Shown here: positions 876 through 31,651 of the stretch, in pieces
How positions within the stretch are numbered: position 1 is the first letter of the stretch
Layout: each line of letters opens with the position of its first letter
Source: a virus
DNA length: 38,078 nt
Virus record (IMG/VR): IMGVR_UViG_3300021437_000052
Location: 1 to 38,078 of that record
Strand: one strand, 5' to 3'
Position numbers and translations under genes: made by a program
Notes under the pieces: model-generated
Told to the model about the DNA's origin: nothing
Seen by the model: the letters and a program-made list of their open reading frames with translations, nothing else
Databases searched by the model: none

Positions 876-910
876 TTGTTGTTTTATAACATAATATTTT
901 TGTATCTTTG
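876..910 (+). promoter_or_regulatory. Bacteroidota-type promoter for a small RNA
   Basis: TTGTTG at 876-881, then 21 bases, then TATCTTTG at 903-910, matching the Bacteroidota -33/-7 pattern (TTG and TAnnTTTG). It faces right, against the flanking leftward genes. No protein gene begins downstream, but a hairpin followed by a T-run lies 70 bases further on. The same TTGTTG-21-TATCTTTG arrangement precedes the chaperonin operon. Confidence 0.65.
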
Positions 911-916
911 TGCCAT

Positions 917-1004
917 CTGTTGAAAGTTATCTGTTCGGAACGCAGAGACCGAATCGCGCAAGGATAATTTGTAAGAACTGCCTCATGTCGAGTGGGGCGT
1001 TTTT
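917..1004 (+). ncRNA. Candidate structured small RNA, about 88 nt
   Basis: The start is estimated about 7 bases after the TATCTTTG box; the end is the T-run of an intrinsic terminator. Three hairpins can be drawn: TTCGG (934-938) with CCGAA (949-953) around a 10-base loop; a weak GCAA (958-961) with TTGT (969-972); and GCCTCA (980-985) with TGGGGC (993-998) followed by TTTTT (1000-1004). No plausible open reading frame fits. The RNA is antisense to the gap between endolysin and holin candidate and ends just before the endolysin stop codon. It could act in trans, regulate lysis genes in cis, or form a phage ribonucleoprotein. It is not a recognisable tRNA. Confidence 0.55.
980..1004 (+). terminator. 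Rho-independent terminator of the small RNA
   Basis: Six-pair stem GCCTCA/TGGGGC (one T-G pair) with a 7-base loop, followed by G and five T. The T-run is only on the plus-strand side, so it ends rightward transcription. The stem closely resembles the terminator after the major capsid gene (GCCTC...GGGGCGTTTT), which supports it as a genuine signal. Confidence 0.6.
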
Positions 1005-6308: not shown

Positions 6309-6316
6309 CAAAATTA
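6309..6316 (-). promoter_or_regulatory. Promoter box for the fibre and lysis operon
   Basis: Leftward TAATTTTG followed by CA, 16 bases before the ATG at 6292. It resembles the boxes of the structural operons, but the 37-bp-upstream palindrome found at those is absent here. It is divergent to the chaperonin promoter. Confidence 0.5.
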
Positions 6317-6353: not shown

Positions 6354-6388
6354 TTGTTGCGTATATGATAATTTTTTATGTATCTTTG
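6354..6388 (+). promoter_or_regulatory. Promoter of the chaperonin operon
   Basis: TTGTTG at 6354-6359, 21 bases, TATCTTTG at 6381-6388, the canonical Bacteroidota pattern. The first ATG of the operon is 16 bases downstream, at 6404. An in-frame ATG at 6365 lies between the two promoter elements and would not be transcribed, which decides the start of the first gene. Confidence 0.7.
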
Positions 6389-6403
6389 CGCAAAATATTT
6401 ACT

Positions 6404-6691: not shown

Positions 6692-6965
6692 CGAATATTC
6701 AAAAGGGGCGATACATAAATTATTTGTGGGAGAGTCCAAAAAACCTTTCTTTGAGGTTGGAACTTATAATGAAGTGATAGATGCTACTATTGTAGAAATA
6801 ATCAAAGATATGAACTTTGAAATTGAAACGGGAGTAACAAAATTTCTAATTGTTGTTCAGAATAAGTCTGATAAGGTTAAATGGATATGGGCAGACCCGC
6901 AAGGATTTGTATTCTTTCCTCAATACGCTAAACCCAAAAACGGAGAAACACAAAATTTACGATAA
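6681..6965 (+). CDS. Hypothetical protein, 94 aa
   Basis: I do not recognise this family. It is a small alpha/beta protein with a central hydrophobic strand (TKFLIVVQNKSDKVKWIWAD) and an aromatic, proline-containing C-terminal part (GFVFFPQYAKP). It overlaps the previous gene by 11 bases and shares TAATG with the GroES-like gene, so it is translated as part of the chaperonin operon. Confidence 0.6.
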   Translation: MENNEYSKGAIHKLFVGESKKPFFEVGTYNEVIDATIVEIIKDMNFEIETGVTKFLIVVQNKSDKVKWIWADPQGFVFFPQYAKPKNGETQNLR

Positions 6966-7339
6966 TGGATGTACTACAAAACTTAATTGATGCCGCGAAA
7001 GGGGTATTAAATAATGATAATGCGATAGCTTTTATAGGACTTGAAGAAGCGATTGCTGATGCTGAAAAATTCCTAGATGTAAGGAATAAAATACCAACCC
7101 CTTTGTTTGACCGAGTGGTGATAAAACCATTTGAAGCCGAAACTAAACAAGGACTGATGATACTTCCTGTTAGCGATAATCAGCACTATGGAGTATTACT
7201 AAAAAAAGGTAAAGACGTTGAAGATGTTGGAGTGGACGAGGTTGTATTTTGGACAAATGAACTTGGCGAAACATTGAGTATTGATGGCGAGGACTTTATC
7301 CTTGCCCCTTTTCCCGAACTTAAAGCGGTTATACGATAG
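6965..7339 (+). CDS. GroES-like co-chaperonin with N-terminal extension
   Basis: A 124-residue protein whose residues 44-124 follow the GroES fold pattern. PTPLFDRVVIKP (44-55) corresponds to the first strand, ETKQGLMILP (59-68) to the mobile loop that docks on GroEL (compare GGIVL in E. coli), VGVDEVVFW (88-96) to the VGDxVxF strand, and IDGEDFILAPFPELKAVI to the final DGxxYxxxxxxDILAVI. Residues 1-43 form a helical extension not found in standard GroES of about 95 residues. It overlaps both neighbours and lies three genes upstream of GroEL. It should cap a chaperonin ring in the host cytoplasm. Confidence 0.8.
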   Translation: MDVLQNLIDAAKGVLNNDNAIAFIGLEEAIADAEKFLDVRNKIPTPLFDRVVIKPFEAETKQGLMILPVSDNQHYGVLLKKGKDVEDVGVDEVVFWTNELGETLSIDGEDFILAPFPELKAVIR

Positions 7340-8166
7340 TGCTAAAACCCATTTATAACAATTATCTTATCAAACCGATTATTGATGGAAACCCATTGAG
7401 AATGGTTGGACTTAATGGTGAGCCATTAGTAGTAAACCCGAAATTTGAGCCATTGATGCACACACCTCAATATGGACAGATAGTTGAGTTGCCGATAAGT
7501 TACAATAAAAAATATCGGTTACTTCCGAAAGATGCCTTTATATTCTTTTCTTATCTAGTTTGTGAGGAATACAAGAAAGTTGTTTATGATGGCGTTGATT
7601 ATTTCTTTTGCGGTGTGGATATGGTATGGGGTAGTGTTTGGGATATTAATAAATACGAATTAGGATTAGAGCCAACCGAAAACTATATCATTGCAGAATT
7701 GGTTATTGACGAAACGCTGATGGAAGGCGAAATGATATTGCGTGAACATGGAGAGAGAGAAAACCAAAAATTAAAGGCACACACTATTCATCCGTCAATA
7801 ACGGATATAATGGAAGGCGATACGCTGATTACACTCAAAGGCGCAGGAACACCGATACACAATAGCCCTTTGGTGTTTGTAAAGACAAATAATATACTAG
7901 GCGTAGAAAGGAATAATGTAATCATTCCCGTAAAAGGCAAACATCTGATTGAAGAGGATGATATAACAGACTATGCTGTATGGAAAGGATTGATAGTAAC
8001 AGAGGCACACCGACACAAGTTTCAGACGGGAACATATTTAGATGGCGACAATAAGGAGTTGATAGGTCGAAAGGTTACATTTATTCATGGTTTCAGCACC
8101 CGATTAAACTTGAATGGGAAAAAGTATGCGGTAGTAACGAATAGGGATTTAATATTTACAACATGA
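7339..8166 (+). CDS. Tandem protein of three GroES-like modules, 275 aa
   Basis: The start is GTG at 7339, overlapping the previous TAG. Three successive regions each follow the GroES order: an initial strand, a flexible loop, a strand like xxGDxxxF, and a closing strand with an ILxxV-type end. Module 1 (about 3-100): PIYNNYLIKP, LPKDAFIFF (62-70), YDGVDYFFCGVDMVWGSV (83-100). Module 2 (111-189): PTENYIIAE, MEGDTLITL (158-166), NSPLVFVKTNNILGV (175-189). Module 3 (191-275): a GLIVTE loop, IGRKVTFIHG (242-251), LNGKKYAVVTNRDLIF. Module sequences are very divergent. Plant Cpn20 has two such modules; three would be unusual. The order in the operon, directly before GroEL, supports co-chaperonin function. 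The domain call is pattern matching by eye. Confidence 0.65.
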   Translation: MLKPIYNNYLIKPIIDGNPLRMVGLNGEPLVVNPKFEPLMHTPQYGQIVELPISYNKKYRLLPKDAFIFFSYLVCEEYKKVVYDGVDYFFCGVDMVWGSVWDINKYELGLEPTENYIIAELVIDETLMEGEMILREHGERENQKLKAHTIHPSITDIMEGDTLITLKGAGTPIHNSPLVFVKTNNILGVERNNVIIPVKGKHLIEEDDITDYAVWKGLIVTEAHRHKFQTGTYLDGDNKELIGRKVTFIHGFSTRLNLNGKKYAVVTNRDLIFTT

Positions 8167-8279
8167 TAAAAACACAAGTCAAAAAACTATCCAACCTTAA
8201 AAAGAGGATGCGTAGTGCCAAGAAAAGAAAACAATATTACAAACAAAATAATCTAATAATTAAATACAATAAAAAATGA
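8163..8279 (+). CDS. Very basic small protein, 38 aa
   Basis: Begins MIKTQVKKLSNLKKRM and contains about 15 Lys or Arg among 38 residues. It overlaps the previous stop (ATGA at 8163-8166) and the next start (ATGA at 8276-8279), so it is coupled on both sides. That double overlap supports it being translated. It might bind nucleic acid or be a remnant left by insertion of the downstream homing endonuclease. No family is recognised. Confidence 0.5.
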   Translation: MIKTQVKKLSNLKKRMRSAKKRKQYYKQNNLIIKYNKK

Positions 8280-8785
8280 AAACAATTCCGCTATCTAAAA
8301 GAGGCAAGCACAAAGATATGTATTTCGCCATAGTTGATGATGTGGATTATGATGCACTTATGAAATATAACTGGGGCGTGTGTAAAAATGGGAGAAATAT
8401 GTATGCTATCAGGACAGATATTAGTTCGGGCAAAAGAAAAACCACACAGATGCACAGGGATATATTAGGTGTTTCTGATGCCAACATTATAATAGACCAC
8501 AAAGACCACGATGGATTAAATAATCAGAGAAGTAATTTAAGGGAATGTACTAAGGAAGAAAACTCAAGGAATAGAATCCCAAGAAAAAATGCGTCTTCGT
8601 CTTATTTGGGAGTCAGTATTCAGACAAACAAAAACGGATATACGTTTTGGAGGGCAAAAATAACACACAATAAAAAGAAAATAAATATAGGAAGTTACAA
8701 GACAGAAAAAGAGGCGGCTGTCGCGTATAATGACATGGCTGTAAAACTACATAAAGAATTTGCTAATATAAATACAATAATTTAA
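8276..8785 (+). CDS. HNH homing endonuclease with AP2 DNA-binding domain
   Basis: A 169-residue free-standing endonuclease. The HNH part runs from MHR (59-61) through DHKDHDGLNNQRSNLR (74-89) and TKEENSRNR; the catalytic His and Asn of the beta-beta-alpha metal fold are present. A C-terminal AP2-type DNA-binding domain follows (about 109-165: YLGVSIQ, FWRAKI, IGSYKTEKEAAVAYN). Such enzymes nick or cut DNA to spread themselves. It separates the co-chaperonin genes from GroEL, suggesting a late insertion into the operon. No flanking intron or intein signals were seen. Confidence 0.85.
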   Translation: MKTIPLSKRGKHKDMYFAIVDDVDYDALMKYNWGVCKNGRNMYAIRTDISSGKRKTTQMHRDILGVSDANIIIDHKDHDGLNNQRSNLRECTKEENSRNRIPRKNASSSYLGVSIQTNKNGYTFWRAKITHNKKKINIGSYKTEKEAAVAYNDMAVKLHKEFANINTII

Positions 8786-8795
8786 AAAAAGAAAA

Positions 8796-10487
8796 ATGAA
8801 AAAATTAAATTTTAGTTCGGAAGCAAGAAAAGAGTTGCTTGTAGGGGTAAATGATGCCTCTAATATGACAAAACAAACACTAGGGTTGTTGGGAAACTAT
8901 ATTCTGTTAAGGCAGGTAGTTCAAGATTCTTCAGGTAAGCGTTATCCACAATGGAGATATACCAAAGACGGAGTATCTGTTATTCGTGATATTTTCAGCG
9001 ACAACCAAGCAACTGATACTGGTATATCAATGGTGCGTTCTGCTTGTGAAGCAACGGTAAATATGGCAGGAGATGGCACAACTGTTACCTCTGTACTTAC
9101 CCAAGCACTTATGAATAGTGCCGATGCTGAATTAGACAAAGAAAGGCGCGCTATCTACCTTAAAAAAGGAATGGAACAGGCGTGTGAATTAGTTGTGTCG
9201 AAACTTGCAAATATAAAGGTTGCTATAAAAGATGGCGATGGAAACATTAATCACCAACTAGCAAAGGAGGTGGCAATGATTTCAGCGAATAGCGATGAGG
9301 AGATAGGCGGTATTGTTGCCGATGCTATCAAGTCTGTTACGTCTGACGGAATGATTACCGTTGAACGTTCAAATGACTACAAAACATCTATTGATAAAGT
9401 TGAGGGGGTATTGCTTTCGGGAACAGTAGTAAGCCCATACTTCATTACAAACCCCGAAAAGGCAACGTGCGAGTTTGATAATCCTTTGGTGTTGCTATAT
9501 GACAGAGAGATTTCAACGATTGCTCAATTAAAACCGATTATAGGAAAGATACTTGAAAGACAGCAAAAGGAACAAAGACCTATTCCTGTGGTTATCGTGT
9601 GCCAAGATTGCAAGAATGAGGCGTTATCATTCCTTGTAACAAACAAATTAAAAGGCAGTTTGATTGTTGGTGTTATTAAGATGTCGGACACAGGCGTTCA
9701 GAAGAGAAAGATACTTGAAGATTTGGCTATTGCTGTTGATGGAGATTTCATATCCGAAGAGCGTGGAATAAACTTAGAAAAGGTTACGATGGATATGTTA
9801 GGAAGTGCATCTAAAATCATCATTGATAAAACCGACACCATTATCGTAACAAAGAAACTTGATATTGATTCTGAAAAATCTGAAAAGGACTATACACATG
9901 AGGAGAAGCGATATGTAAAAAACCAAGCGAATTTAAAAAAACACATTGCCGAGATAAAACAACTTATGGAGAACGAGCAAAACCCCGATGATAAAAAGTT
10001 AGTGCAGGAGAGATACGCTAAACTTACAGGGGGTGTTGCTGTTATTAAGGTTGGAGGAAAGACCAATGAGGAGGTTGTGGAAAAGATTGATAGAGTAGAT
10101 GATGCGTTATGTGCTTCGCGTTCCGCAATAAAAGAGGGTATCGTAATAGGTGGCGGAAGTATCTACCTTAAATTATCGAAATTTATTGATTCTATGGATG
10201 CCGATAATGATGATGTTCGTGCAGGTCAGATGTTGGTTAAAAAAGCACTTGAAGAGCCATTTAAACAGCTTCTTGTCAATGCAGGGATAAGTGATGATTC
10301 ATTACTTGCGGGAGTGCGCGACAGCGATATAAATACAGGATATAACCTTGCTACTGAAAAGATTGAAAACCTACGTGATGCAGGGGTAATTGACAGCGCA
10401 ATGGTTGTAAGAGTTGCACTTGAAAATGCGGTTTCGGCAGCAGGACTTTTCATAAAGTGCGGAGGAACAATAATGCCTATTAGATAA
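8796..10487 (+). CDS. groEL: Phage GroEL-like group I chaperonin, 563 aa
   Basis: An ATP-driven folding chaperonin. ATPase elements are intact: TKDG with Asp58 (E. coli Asp52), GDGTT with Asp93 (Asp87), VDDAL with Asp436 (Asp398), the EGIVIGGG loop (448-454) and GYNLAT (515-520). The apical domain keeps SPYFI (213-217) and the LxxLV-type face of helix I (277-281). Differences from cellular GroEL: Tyr199 is replaced by Val, there is an extra Lys/Glu-rich stretch of about 20 residues near 352-380, and the C-terminus stops after TIMPIR without the GGM-rich tail. It is the main gene of the operon and overlaps the following small gene. Likely clients are phage structural proteins. Confidence 0.92.
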   Translation: MKKLNFSSEARKELLVGVNDASNMTKQTLGLLGNYILLRQVVQDSSGKRYPQWRYTKDGVSVIRDIFSDNQATDTGISMVRSACEATVNMAGDGTTVTSVLTQALMNSADAELDKERRAIYLKKGMEQACELVVSKLANIKVAIKDGDGNINHQLAKEVAMISANSDEEIGGIVADAIKSVTSDGMITVERSNDYKTSIDKVEGVLLSGTVVSPYFITNPEKATCEFDNPLVLLYDREISTIAQLKPIIGKILERQQKEQRPIPVVIVCQDCKNEALSFLVTNKLKGSLIVGVIKMSDTGVQKRKILEDLAIAVDGDFISEERGINLEKVTMDMLGSASKIIIDKTDTIIVTKKLDIDSEKSEKDYTHEEKRYVKNQANLKKHIAEIKQLMENEQNPDDKKLVQERYAKLTGGVAVIKVGGKTNEEVVEKIDRVDDALCASRSAIKEGIVIGGGSIYLKLSKFIDSMDADNDDVRAGQMLVKKALEEPFKQLLVNAGISDDSLLAGVRDSDINTGYNLATEKIENLRDAGVIDSAMVVRVALENAVSAAGLFIKCGGTIMPIR

Positions 10488-18236: not shown

Positions 18237-18292
18237 CAAAATTAATATCTATTCCCTCCTACAAACGTATTGTTTTAGAGTTAAATTATGTA
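18237..18292 (-). promoter_or_regulatory. Tail-operon promoter with upstream palindrome
   Basis: Leftward box TAATTTTG (18237-18244), then exactly 37 bp, then TAAATTATGTA (18282-18292), one base off the palindrome TACATTATGTA. A TTTG lies 17 bases upstream of the box. The ATG at 18220 is 16 bases downstream. Confidence 0.7.
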
Positions 18293-18313
18293 ATATCAAT
18301 CATATATTATTTT

Positions 18314-22107: not shown

Positions 22108-22163
22108 CAAAAGTACTCACTATGTCTTTATAAGTTATATCACAAAAGTCGATACATTATGTT
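22108..22163 (-). promoter_or_regulatory. Promoter with upstream palindrome for the 383-residue gene
   Basis: Leftward TACTTTTG (22108-22115), exactly 37 bp, then TACATTATGTT (22153-22163), one base off the palindrome. It lies between the capsid-gene terminator and the ATG at 22077. Confidence 0.7.
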
Positions 22164-22210
22164 ATGGAAATTTATTAACATTTGTAATGTTCGTGATGCT
22201 ATACAAAAGA

Positions 22211-22238
22211 AAACGCCCCACATTTCTGCGAGGCGTTT
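22211..22238 (-). terminator. Terminator after the major capsid gene
   Basis: On the minus strand AAACGCCTC pairs with GGGGCGTTT (9 pairs including one T-G) around a 10-base loop, followed by TCTTTTG. It lies 24 bases after the capsid-protein stop and separates this operon from the next promoter. Confidence 0.8.
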
Positions 22239-22262
22239 CTTGTTTGTAGGGCTACTACTTAA

Positions 22263-24954: not shown

Positions 24955-25010
24955 CAAAAATAAGGGGTATAATTATGCAATGCTACGTGTAACGAGTGAT
25001 ACATTATGTA
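24955..25010 (-). promoter_or_regulatory. Scaffold and capsid promoter with palindrome
   Basis: Leftward TATTTTTG (24955-24962) followed by CA and preceded by CCCCT, exactly 37 bp, then the perfect palindrome TACATTATGTA (25000-25010). The palindrome lies between the terminase stop and the promoter. No good TTG at the usual -33 distance, which suggests activator dependence. Confidence 0.75.
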
Positions 25011-25018
25011 ATGATAAT

Positions 25019-27518: not shown

Positions 27519-28580
27519 TTAAAGGGCATTTATTAAGGTCTGAACCTGTGCGGCTGTTTCCTGTACATCTTTTCGTACAAACGTTGAGTTGCTAGGGTCA
27601 TTGTATAGTATCGCACAACCTGTTACTGCACCCTCAACAAATGTTGCTGTTAATGTAGCGTTGTTTCCACCGCCTGTTGTACTTACAGGGTTGCTTGGAG
27701 GTGCTGAATACGCTCCTGCATTTGCTACCGCTACCGTCTTTGCACCCATTACCAAAGTGAATGTTGCGCCTGTTCCTGTACCTCCTGTTACGGTGTCATT
27801 TGTTAATGTAGGATTTACGGTATAATCACCACGAGTTGTAAGAGTGAATGTTGTTATCGCTCCCCCTGTTACCGTATCTACGGTTATAGTAGCTTTCGTT
27901 CCTGTTCCTGTCGCTAATGTTAGCACATCACCTGCGGTATATCCTGTTCCGTTTGCTGTTTTTGTTGCTGTTGCTACCTCTGTATGCGTTACAAGCATTG
28001 TTGCTTGTGTTCCGTATGTTCCGCCCGATAAAGTCAATGTTGTTGTTCCTGCTACCATTGTAGTACCTCTCGATGCTACCGTTGCACTTTCAAGCACCTC
28101 GCCTGTTTCTGCATGAGCATTTATTTCAGCACAACGTAATGAATTTAGGTAATATACCGTATTCGATTCGCTATCTGTTGCAGGGAATGTTTTTCCTGTG
28201 GTTGCTGATACAACCGAAGCGGCATCATTTAATACAAATTTTTGTGATACCGAGCCATCATTCACCCAATAGTACATTGTGCTTCCTGTGTCGGTGTTAT
28301 CATTTATTGTTAATACGTTCTGATTGTTAAAACAAGTATCTTTTGTTCCTCCAAGTTCATCAACAACGGTAGATATAAATAAGATACCTGTTGATAGTGC
28401 CTGTAAAGCCGAAGTACTTATAGTAAGTGTCTGCGGTTTAGCATTTACTCCTGTTGAGGAAACGTAGGTTAATACTGCCTTGCTGTCCGAGTTATCGTAA
28501 GCATAGATTATTTGGTTTGCATCAAGTTTGAACGCATCCCCGTTTGAGTTGGTTAGTGATATACTAAGATTTGCTGCCAT
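27519..28580 (-). CDS. Beta-rich virion protein, decoration or head-fibre type, 353 aa
   Basis: Residues 1-150 form a mixed N-terminal part (MAANLSISLTNSNGDAFKLD). Residues 190-330 are Gly/Thr/Val repeats such as GTGYTAGDVLTLATGTGTKA and GGTGTGATFTLVMG, typical of beta structure in phage surface proteins. A helical C-terminus (ETAAQVQTLINAL) follows. It is the first gene before the terminase pair and is driven by a palindrome-type promoter. Likely exposed on the virion; the exact position (head or tail) is uncertain. Confidence 0.6.
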   Translation of the reverse strand: MAANLSISLTNSNGDAFKLDANQIIYAYDNSDSKAVLTYVSSTGVNAKPQTLTISTSALQALSTGILFISTVVDELGGTKDTCFNNQNVLTINDNTDTGSTMYYWVNDGSVSQKFVLNDAASVVSATTGKTFPATDSESNTVYYLNSLRCAEINAHAETGEVLESATVASRGTTMVAGTTTLTLSGGTYGTQATMLVTHTEVATATKTANGTGYTAGDVLTLATGTGTKATITVDTVTGGAITTFTLTTRGDYTVNPTLTNDTVTGGTGTGATFTLVMGAKTVAVANAGAYSAPPSNPVSTTGGGNNATLTATFVEGAVTGCAILYNDPSNSTFVRKDVQETAAQVQTLINAL

Positions 28581-28604: not shown

Positions 28605-28660
28605 CAAAAATAGATAACATAACAAAGGTAAGTATCGGTTAAAGTACACTACATTATGTA
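28605..28660 (-). promoter_or_regulatory. Promoter with palindrome for the virion-protein and terminase operon
   Basis: Leftward TATTTTTG (28605-28612), exactly 37 bp, perfect palindrome TACATTATGTA (28650-28660). The same palindrome lies 47 bp upstream of the divergent rightward box at 28708. Confidence 0.75.
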
Positions 28661-28680
28661 ATACTAATGTATATTGTTTT

Positions 28681-30970: not shown

Positions 30971-31651
30971 ATGAAAAAACACTTGCATATATTAATTGTA
31001 TTTTTTACTTTTGTGCCATCATTAATAGCAGTTGCCGATGCTAATAAAAACAATATTAAAAACGATTACTCCTTAGTAGCTCGGCAAGGCGAACAGGGGC
31101 AATCGTTTTCTTTTTCTATGCAAAAAATATATTTATATGCAGGACGTGGTAGCCAAAGTAAGCCAACCGAAAATTATGTTTTAGTAGATGATAGAGATTA
31201 CGCATATCTCAATCAATTCAAATGGGGATTAATGAAATTGTATCATTGCGATAACCCTATTACTTATGCGCGAAGATACGAAACTATTGATGGTAAATAT
31301 ACCGCAATATTAATGCACAGAGTTATTCTTGGGCTAAAGGGAAGATGGGAGCATGGCGACCATATCAACGGAAACACAATGGATAATACAAGAGATAATT
31401 TGCGTATTGCCACTCACACAGAGAACATGAGAAACAGAAGACAATTAGTAAAGAAGGGGACTTCGAGATATAAGGGCGTTTCTTTTCATTCAAGTAAGTA
31501 TAACACTATAAGGTATTGGGTAGCGCATATAAAAGTTGATGAGGGGGATAAAAGAGCAAAATTTGACAACGAAATCAGTGCAGCTCGTCAGTATAACCTG
31601 TGGGCGATTCAATACAGAGGACAGTTTGCTAATATTAATATATTACCGTAA
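30971..31651 (+). CDS. HNH-AP2 homing endonuclease with an unusual signal-like N-terminus
   Basis: HNH part at about 115-156 (MHRVILG, GDHINGNTMDNTRDNLR, TENMRNRR) and AP2 part at about 165-222 (SRYKGVSFH, YWVAHIKV, AARQYNLWAIQYRG). The enzyme proper probably begins near Met50 at 31118 (MQKIYLYAGRGS). Residues 1-23 (MKKHLHILIVFFTFVPSLIA...) look like a signal peptide, followed by a short polar stretch, unrelated to the other endonuclease here. It shares TAATG with the giant gene. The insertion site is between two virion genes. The N-terminus may be a captured gene fragment, or translation may start at Met50. Confidence 0.8.
   Translation: MKKHLHILIVFFTFVPSLIAVADANKNNIKNDYSLVARQGEQGQSFSFSMQKIYLYAGRGSQSKPTENYVLVDDRDYAYLNQFKWGLMKLYHCDNPITYARRYETIDGKYTAILMHRVILGLKGRWEHGDHINGNTMDNTRDNLRIATHTENMRNRRQLVKKGTSRYKGVSFHSSKYNTIRYWVAHIKVDEGDKRAKFDNEISAARQYNLWAIQYRGQFANINILP

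Follow-up and report, generated by a model that had tools for sequence, protein, structure and literature searches.

A putative small-RNA unit was found in the 149-nt gap between the endolysin gene and the holin-like gene, where a promoter and an intrinsic terminator on the + strand frame a predicted non-coding RNA of 90 nt (915–1004). The window analysed here is the entire IMG/VR record IMGVR_UViG_3300021437_000052 (38,078 bases); because its right-end gene is open, it was regarded as a genome fragment. The sequence feature was confirmed as real and probably represents a gene for a small antisense RNA, one whose kind is already known, and the probability that 915–1004 is a real transcription unit was estimated to be about 0.75. 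A small-RNA unit was the best reading because the promoter and terminator lie well above chance, the promoter has a twin in the window, the RNA body is GC-rich although the gap is AT-rich, and the gap is not explained by any promoter on the minus strand. The initial annotation had proposed a phage small RNA opposite the lysis genes; this still describes the sequence best, although the hairpins were not unusually stable and no relative was found.

Terminase and portal placed the window among the tailed phages of Flavobacteriia. The terminase relatives at 53–70% identity were metagenomic contigs only, and the terminase identity to Flavobacterium elemo phages was about 35%. PHROG matches were obtained for phage proteins of the window, and the relatives together with the promoter type suggested Bacteroidota as the host group. 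Two related HNH-type genes (8276–8785 and 30971–31651, the HNH call being made by eye) are inserted between other genes and are probably free-standing homing endonucleases; in the relative G001, a homologue lies directly before a gene pair that includes the terminase gene.

The promoter described in the initial annotation was present at 876–910 on the + strand. It consists of TTGTTG (876–881), the –33 element of a Bacteroidota sigma-A promoter, a spacer of 21 nt (882–902) and the –7 box TATCTTTG (903–910), which follows the TAnnTTTG pattern. The promoter scan recovered these elements and found the same layout before position 6401. In Flavobacterium psychrophilum the TAnnTTTG box is located at –12 to –5 (PMC9723704), and on this basis the RNA start was placed at 915, giving a length of 90 nt when the end is taken from the T-tract. 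The rho-independent terminator said to close the unit was also there (973–1004, + strand): its hairpin GCCUCAU/GUGGGGC pairs 980–986 with 992–998, so that the stem spans 980–998, and is followed by TTTTT at 1000–1004. The same terminator was recovered by an independent scan.

Two promoter-then-terminator units were detected in the window, one in the 149-nt gap and the other in a coding region (6357 onward). Across 60 dinucleotide-shuffled versions of the complete window, the mean was only 0.083 units per version, and 8% of them held any. A + strand terminator arose in 1.35% of the gap shuffles. The GC content of the RNA (915–1004) was 46%, and that of its body without the terminator was 42%, as against 19% for the promoter part and 26% for the other gaps pooled; 6% of the 62-nt stretches taken from other gaps matched the RNA body in GC richness. 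RNA genes commonly stand out by a GC-rich body where the non-coding DNA around them is AT-rich.

The flanking genes both lie on the – strand, opposite to the unit, as had been noted. The gene at 1007–1483 encodes an M15 (VanY-type) endolysin according to Pfam (PF02557/PF13539) and PHROG endolysin families. The gene at 612–857 encodes a protein of 81 aa with two hydrophobic helices by hydropathy; it had no family match in the Pfam and PHROG scans, and only its position and topology mark it as a holin. It is overlapped by a gene for a second small membrane protein with one helix (322–615, – strand), as judged from gene layout and hydropathy. These genes belong to a leftward block running from 6292 to 322, in which every other junction overlaps or measures ≤12 nt; its likely promoter box, TAATTTTG (6309–6316, – strand), was assigned by position. 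The shuffle expectation and the uniqueness of the gap within the operon were counted for the view that such a unit is unlikely to be kept by accident in a packed genome. The minus strand of the gap contains no TAnnTTTG, so that a promoter for the holin-like gene does not explain it. Since the RNA lies wholly inside the only long gap of the operon, it is perfectly complementary to the endolysin–holin intercistronic stretch, from the endolysin stop codon to a point 58 nt before the start codon of the holin-like gene; provided that the operon reads through the gap, the whole RNA is by geometry complementary to the lysis transcript. Promoter, terminator, gap and antisense geometry can all be read directly from the DNA.

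The statement that the unit contained no coding frame needed a caveat. A GTG frame (910–1149, 79 aa) passes through the RNA, and a TTG frame of 15 codons (920–967) lies inside it, but both look like chance frames. A small protein starting from GTG 910 was rejected, because the frame crosses the terminator and runs antisense to the conserved endolysin. No tRNA or tmRNA was found.

The predicted fold consisted of one long arm (924–970, + strand) and the terminator. The arm contains 15 pairs (924–938 with 949–954 and 962–970), and the TTCGG/CCGAA hairpin previously pointed out was real, forming its tip. In contrast, the GCAA/TTGT hairpin proposed alongside it appeared in neither the minimum-energy nor the centroid structure. 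The fold showed no significant excess of stability over 200 shuffles (z of –1.5), 16 of which were equally or more stable. The 5' end was unpaired and a 10-nt loop was exposed, with the terminator forming the tail. These features would also suit a transcript that uses its single-stranded 5' end or the AACGCAGAGA loop to act in trans on messages of the host or the phage; its position between the lysis genes would then be incidental. Such a trans-acting RNA, for which the seemingly early or constitutive promoter also speaks, is the main rival to cis-antisense action. Phage PAK_P3 is reported to have intergenic sRNAs of ∼100 nt with a possible action in trans (PMC4933390). Nevertheless, shuffled RNA paired with the start regions of the window no worse than the RNA itself did (the best pairing was –28.1 kcal/mol, and 22% of the shuffles were as good). 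Action in trans was considered rather unlikely.

Relatives of the unit were sought widely. Rfam gave nothing at gathering or relaxed thresholds, and the phage records gave no match past short chance pieces, hence none to sar or OOP. No homologue was found in plasmid sequences, in IMG/VR by exact 20-mer or stem-pattern scans, or in the genomes of 84,980 species by 20-mer scan. The sole match in 395 Bacteroidota genomes was a 20-mer within a protein-coding frame and was dismissed as chance. A single-sequence covariance model recovered only the window itself from 66 sources, 148 Bacteroidota genomes and 22 phage records. No sufficiently close relative with the lysis region was found in the collections by protein scans. 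The closest endolysin relative is L002 (64%), where the gene for the next membrane protein begins at the endolysin end and the gap is absent. As far as seen, the unit is not conserved, although no close relative carrying the locus occurs in the collections, so that this result reflects a shortage of material for comparison as much as a lack of conservation. Promoter–terminator units beside the endolysin gene in L039, L042 and L052–L055 were left uncounted, because the boxes resembling TATCTTTG seem to be the final endolysin codons, read on the same strand. A non-coding promoter-to-terminator unit of ∼90 nt was also observed in an unrelated phage with an M15 endolysin (L006:6702–6787); no sequence likeness to the present unit was seen.

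The lack of conservation wherever searched, the modest z value of the fold and the missing gap in the nearest endolysin relative would fit a locus with no functional RNA at all, that is, a chance or decaying promoter next to a spacer terminator, or a unit that only terminates stray rightward transcription. But both promoter boxes are intact and spaced exactly as in the promoter of the GroEL operon, the unit occupies the only gap of a packed operon, and the count of units expected by chance was far below one. We regard a locus of this kind as unlikely.

The operon-start promoters of the window divide into classes, in which the sRNA promoter and the GroEL-operon promoter are twins. The latter (TTGTTG-N21-TATCTTTG, 6354–6388, + strand, recovered by promoter scan) precedes a rightward operon; within the 6965–10487 region under this sRNA-type promoter lies a GroEL-type chaperonin gene (8796–10487, Cpn60_TCP1), and weak homologues of the two genes before it adjoin a chaperonin in the relative G003. 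Another class is marked by ATTACATAATGT, which with 0–1 mismatches is centred exactly 44.5 nt upstream of TAnnTTTG at four minus-strand promoters (28651–28662, 25001–25012, 22154–22165 and 18283–18294, by motif scan), preceding the genes that start at 28580, 24926, 22110 and 18220. Among all 49 TAnnTTTG sites, the next-best copy at that position had 5 mismatches. ATTACATAATGT is probably bound by a phage activator of late promoters; the likely box of the lysis operon (6309–6316) has no such site. Being a twin of the GroEL-operon promoter and unlike the operator-bearing class, the sRNA promoter looks host-driven and would be early or constitutive. In the gap after the major capsid gene (22111–22262), a terminator hairpin (GCCTC...GTGGGGCG-TTTT) closely resembling that of the sRNA is followed by an operator-bearing promoter.

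Inside the spacer of the sRNA promoter there is a degenerate copy, ATAACATAATAT (886–897, + strand), of the palindrome-like late-promoter motif with 2 mismatches. It is a possible repressor site, since binding between both boxes would repress the promoter; because an equally good copy occurred in 1.5% of the shuffled spacers, it was treated only as a lead. A single regulator timing lysis, in which the phage factor that binds ATTACATAATGT also binds 886–897, is quite doubtful. If true, it would switch the antisense RNA off as the late genes are switched on, and the holin genes would be freed from repression.

As the element has some superficial motifs in common with the type II-C repeats and tracrRNAs of Bacteroidota, CRISPR mimicry was tested; the comparison set was 20 cas9 regions with arrays and tracrRNAs, together with 26 tracrRNAs identified by core pattern. 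An RNA-based anti-CRISPR imitating a Bacteroidota type II-C tracrRNA or a CRISPR repeat could account for a local likeness (AAGGATAATT...TTGTAAGAAC...GCCTC...GGGGC) to real Bacteroidota tracrRNAs and for a GTTGT...TTTG likeness to CRISPR repeats. When the same shuffle was applied to all targets, however, the tracrRNA likeness was not significant (p of 0.21 for the body alone and 0.10 with the terminator kept), a profile of the 26 tracrRNAs missed the RNA at E values up to 100, and the near-invariant tracrRNA core GGATnATTCCGTnGTGAAAAC was missing from it. The tracrRNA mimic was rejected on these p values and the empty profile search. The repeat likeness was equalled by 12% of window segments, and a CRISPR-repeat mimic was rejected. 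Mimicry of either sort is very improbable. RNA anti-CRISPRs (Racr) are likewise small phage RNAs behind a predicted promoter, but the window RNA does not significantly resemble the II-C repeats or tracrRNAs of Bacteroidota.

The function judged most likely for the unit, with a likelihood somewhat short of even, is that of a cis-antisense RNA which, in the manner of P22 sar or lambda OOP, restrains holin expression. Transcription, its timing, pairing and the effect on lysis, as we infer them, would proceed as follows. Host RNA polymerase would transcribe the ∼90-nt RNA (915–1004, + strand) early from the host-type sigma-A promoter and would stop at the terminator of the unit. The RNA might then pair with leaking lysis message, leading to processing or decay of the duplex or to a closed holin leader; alternatively, rightward transcription might collide with the leftward polymerase (transcriptional interference). 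Either way, the distal membrane-protein genes would be kept low early in infection, until late transcription outruns the antisense RNA and lysis follows. Because the RNA covers no start codon, any influence on translation would have to be indirect. Counted for cis-antisense control were the promoter and terminator, which lie far above chance, the unique gap and its lack of a minus-strand promoter, the twin promoter and its difference from the operator-bearing class, the GC-rich body, the full complementarity and the precedents in other phages. The missing homologues, the unexceptional fold, the absent gap in L002, the uncovered start codon and the identification of the holin by topology only were counted against it. 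If real, this would be a compact case of RNA-controlled lysis timing from a host-type promoter.

Searches of open-access papers found no small RNA described for any Bacteroidota phage; a lysis cassette under direct antisense control appears there only as a proposal for phage PAK_P4. The unit resembles the sar/OOP kind in signals matched by sequence, namely an opposite-strand promoter and an intrinsic terminator that would give a short RNA. P22 sar RNA (68/69 nt) similarly has its own promoter and terminator and is intergenic in a phage operon on the opposite strand. It covers the ant translation start, whereas the window RNA ends 58 nt before the holin-like start; the two have no sequence relation and other target genes, and sar was proven by experiment (PMC12197685) whereas the window RNA is predicted from sequence. 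Lambda OOP RNA (77 nt) is also a short terminated antisense RNA, transcribed within a phage operon from a promoter of its own, but it overlaps the cII coding sequence and serves lysogeny control, whereas in the lysis operon of the window the RNA overlaps only an intercistronic gap. Two further precedents come from Pseudomonas phages: for PAK_P4as15, which is antisense to an endolysin gene, a delay of lysis was proposed (PMC12197685), and in PAK_P3 early antisense RNAs cover late genes (PMC4933390). The window RNA resembles both in being antisense to late or endolysin genes with a proposed delay of late expression or lysis. PAK_P4as15, however, is ∼550 nt long and lies over the endolysin gene itself, while the window RNA is 90 nt long, has a discrete terminator and lies in the gap (PMC12197685, PMC4933390).
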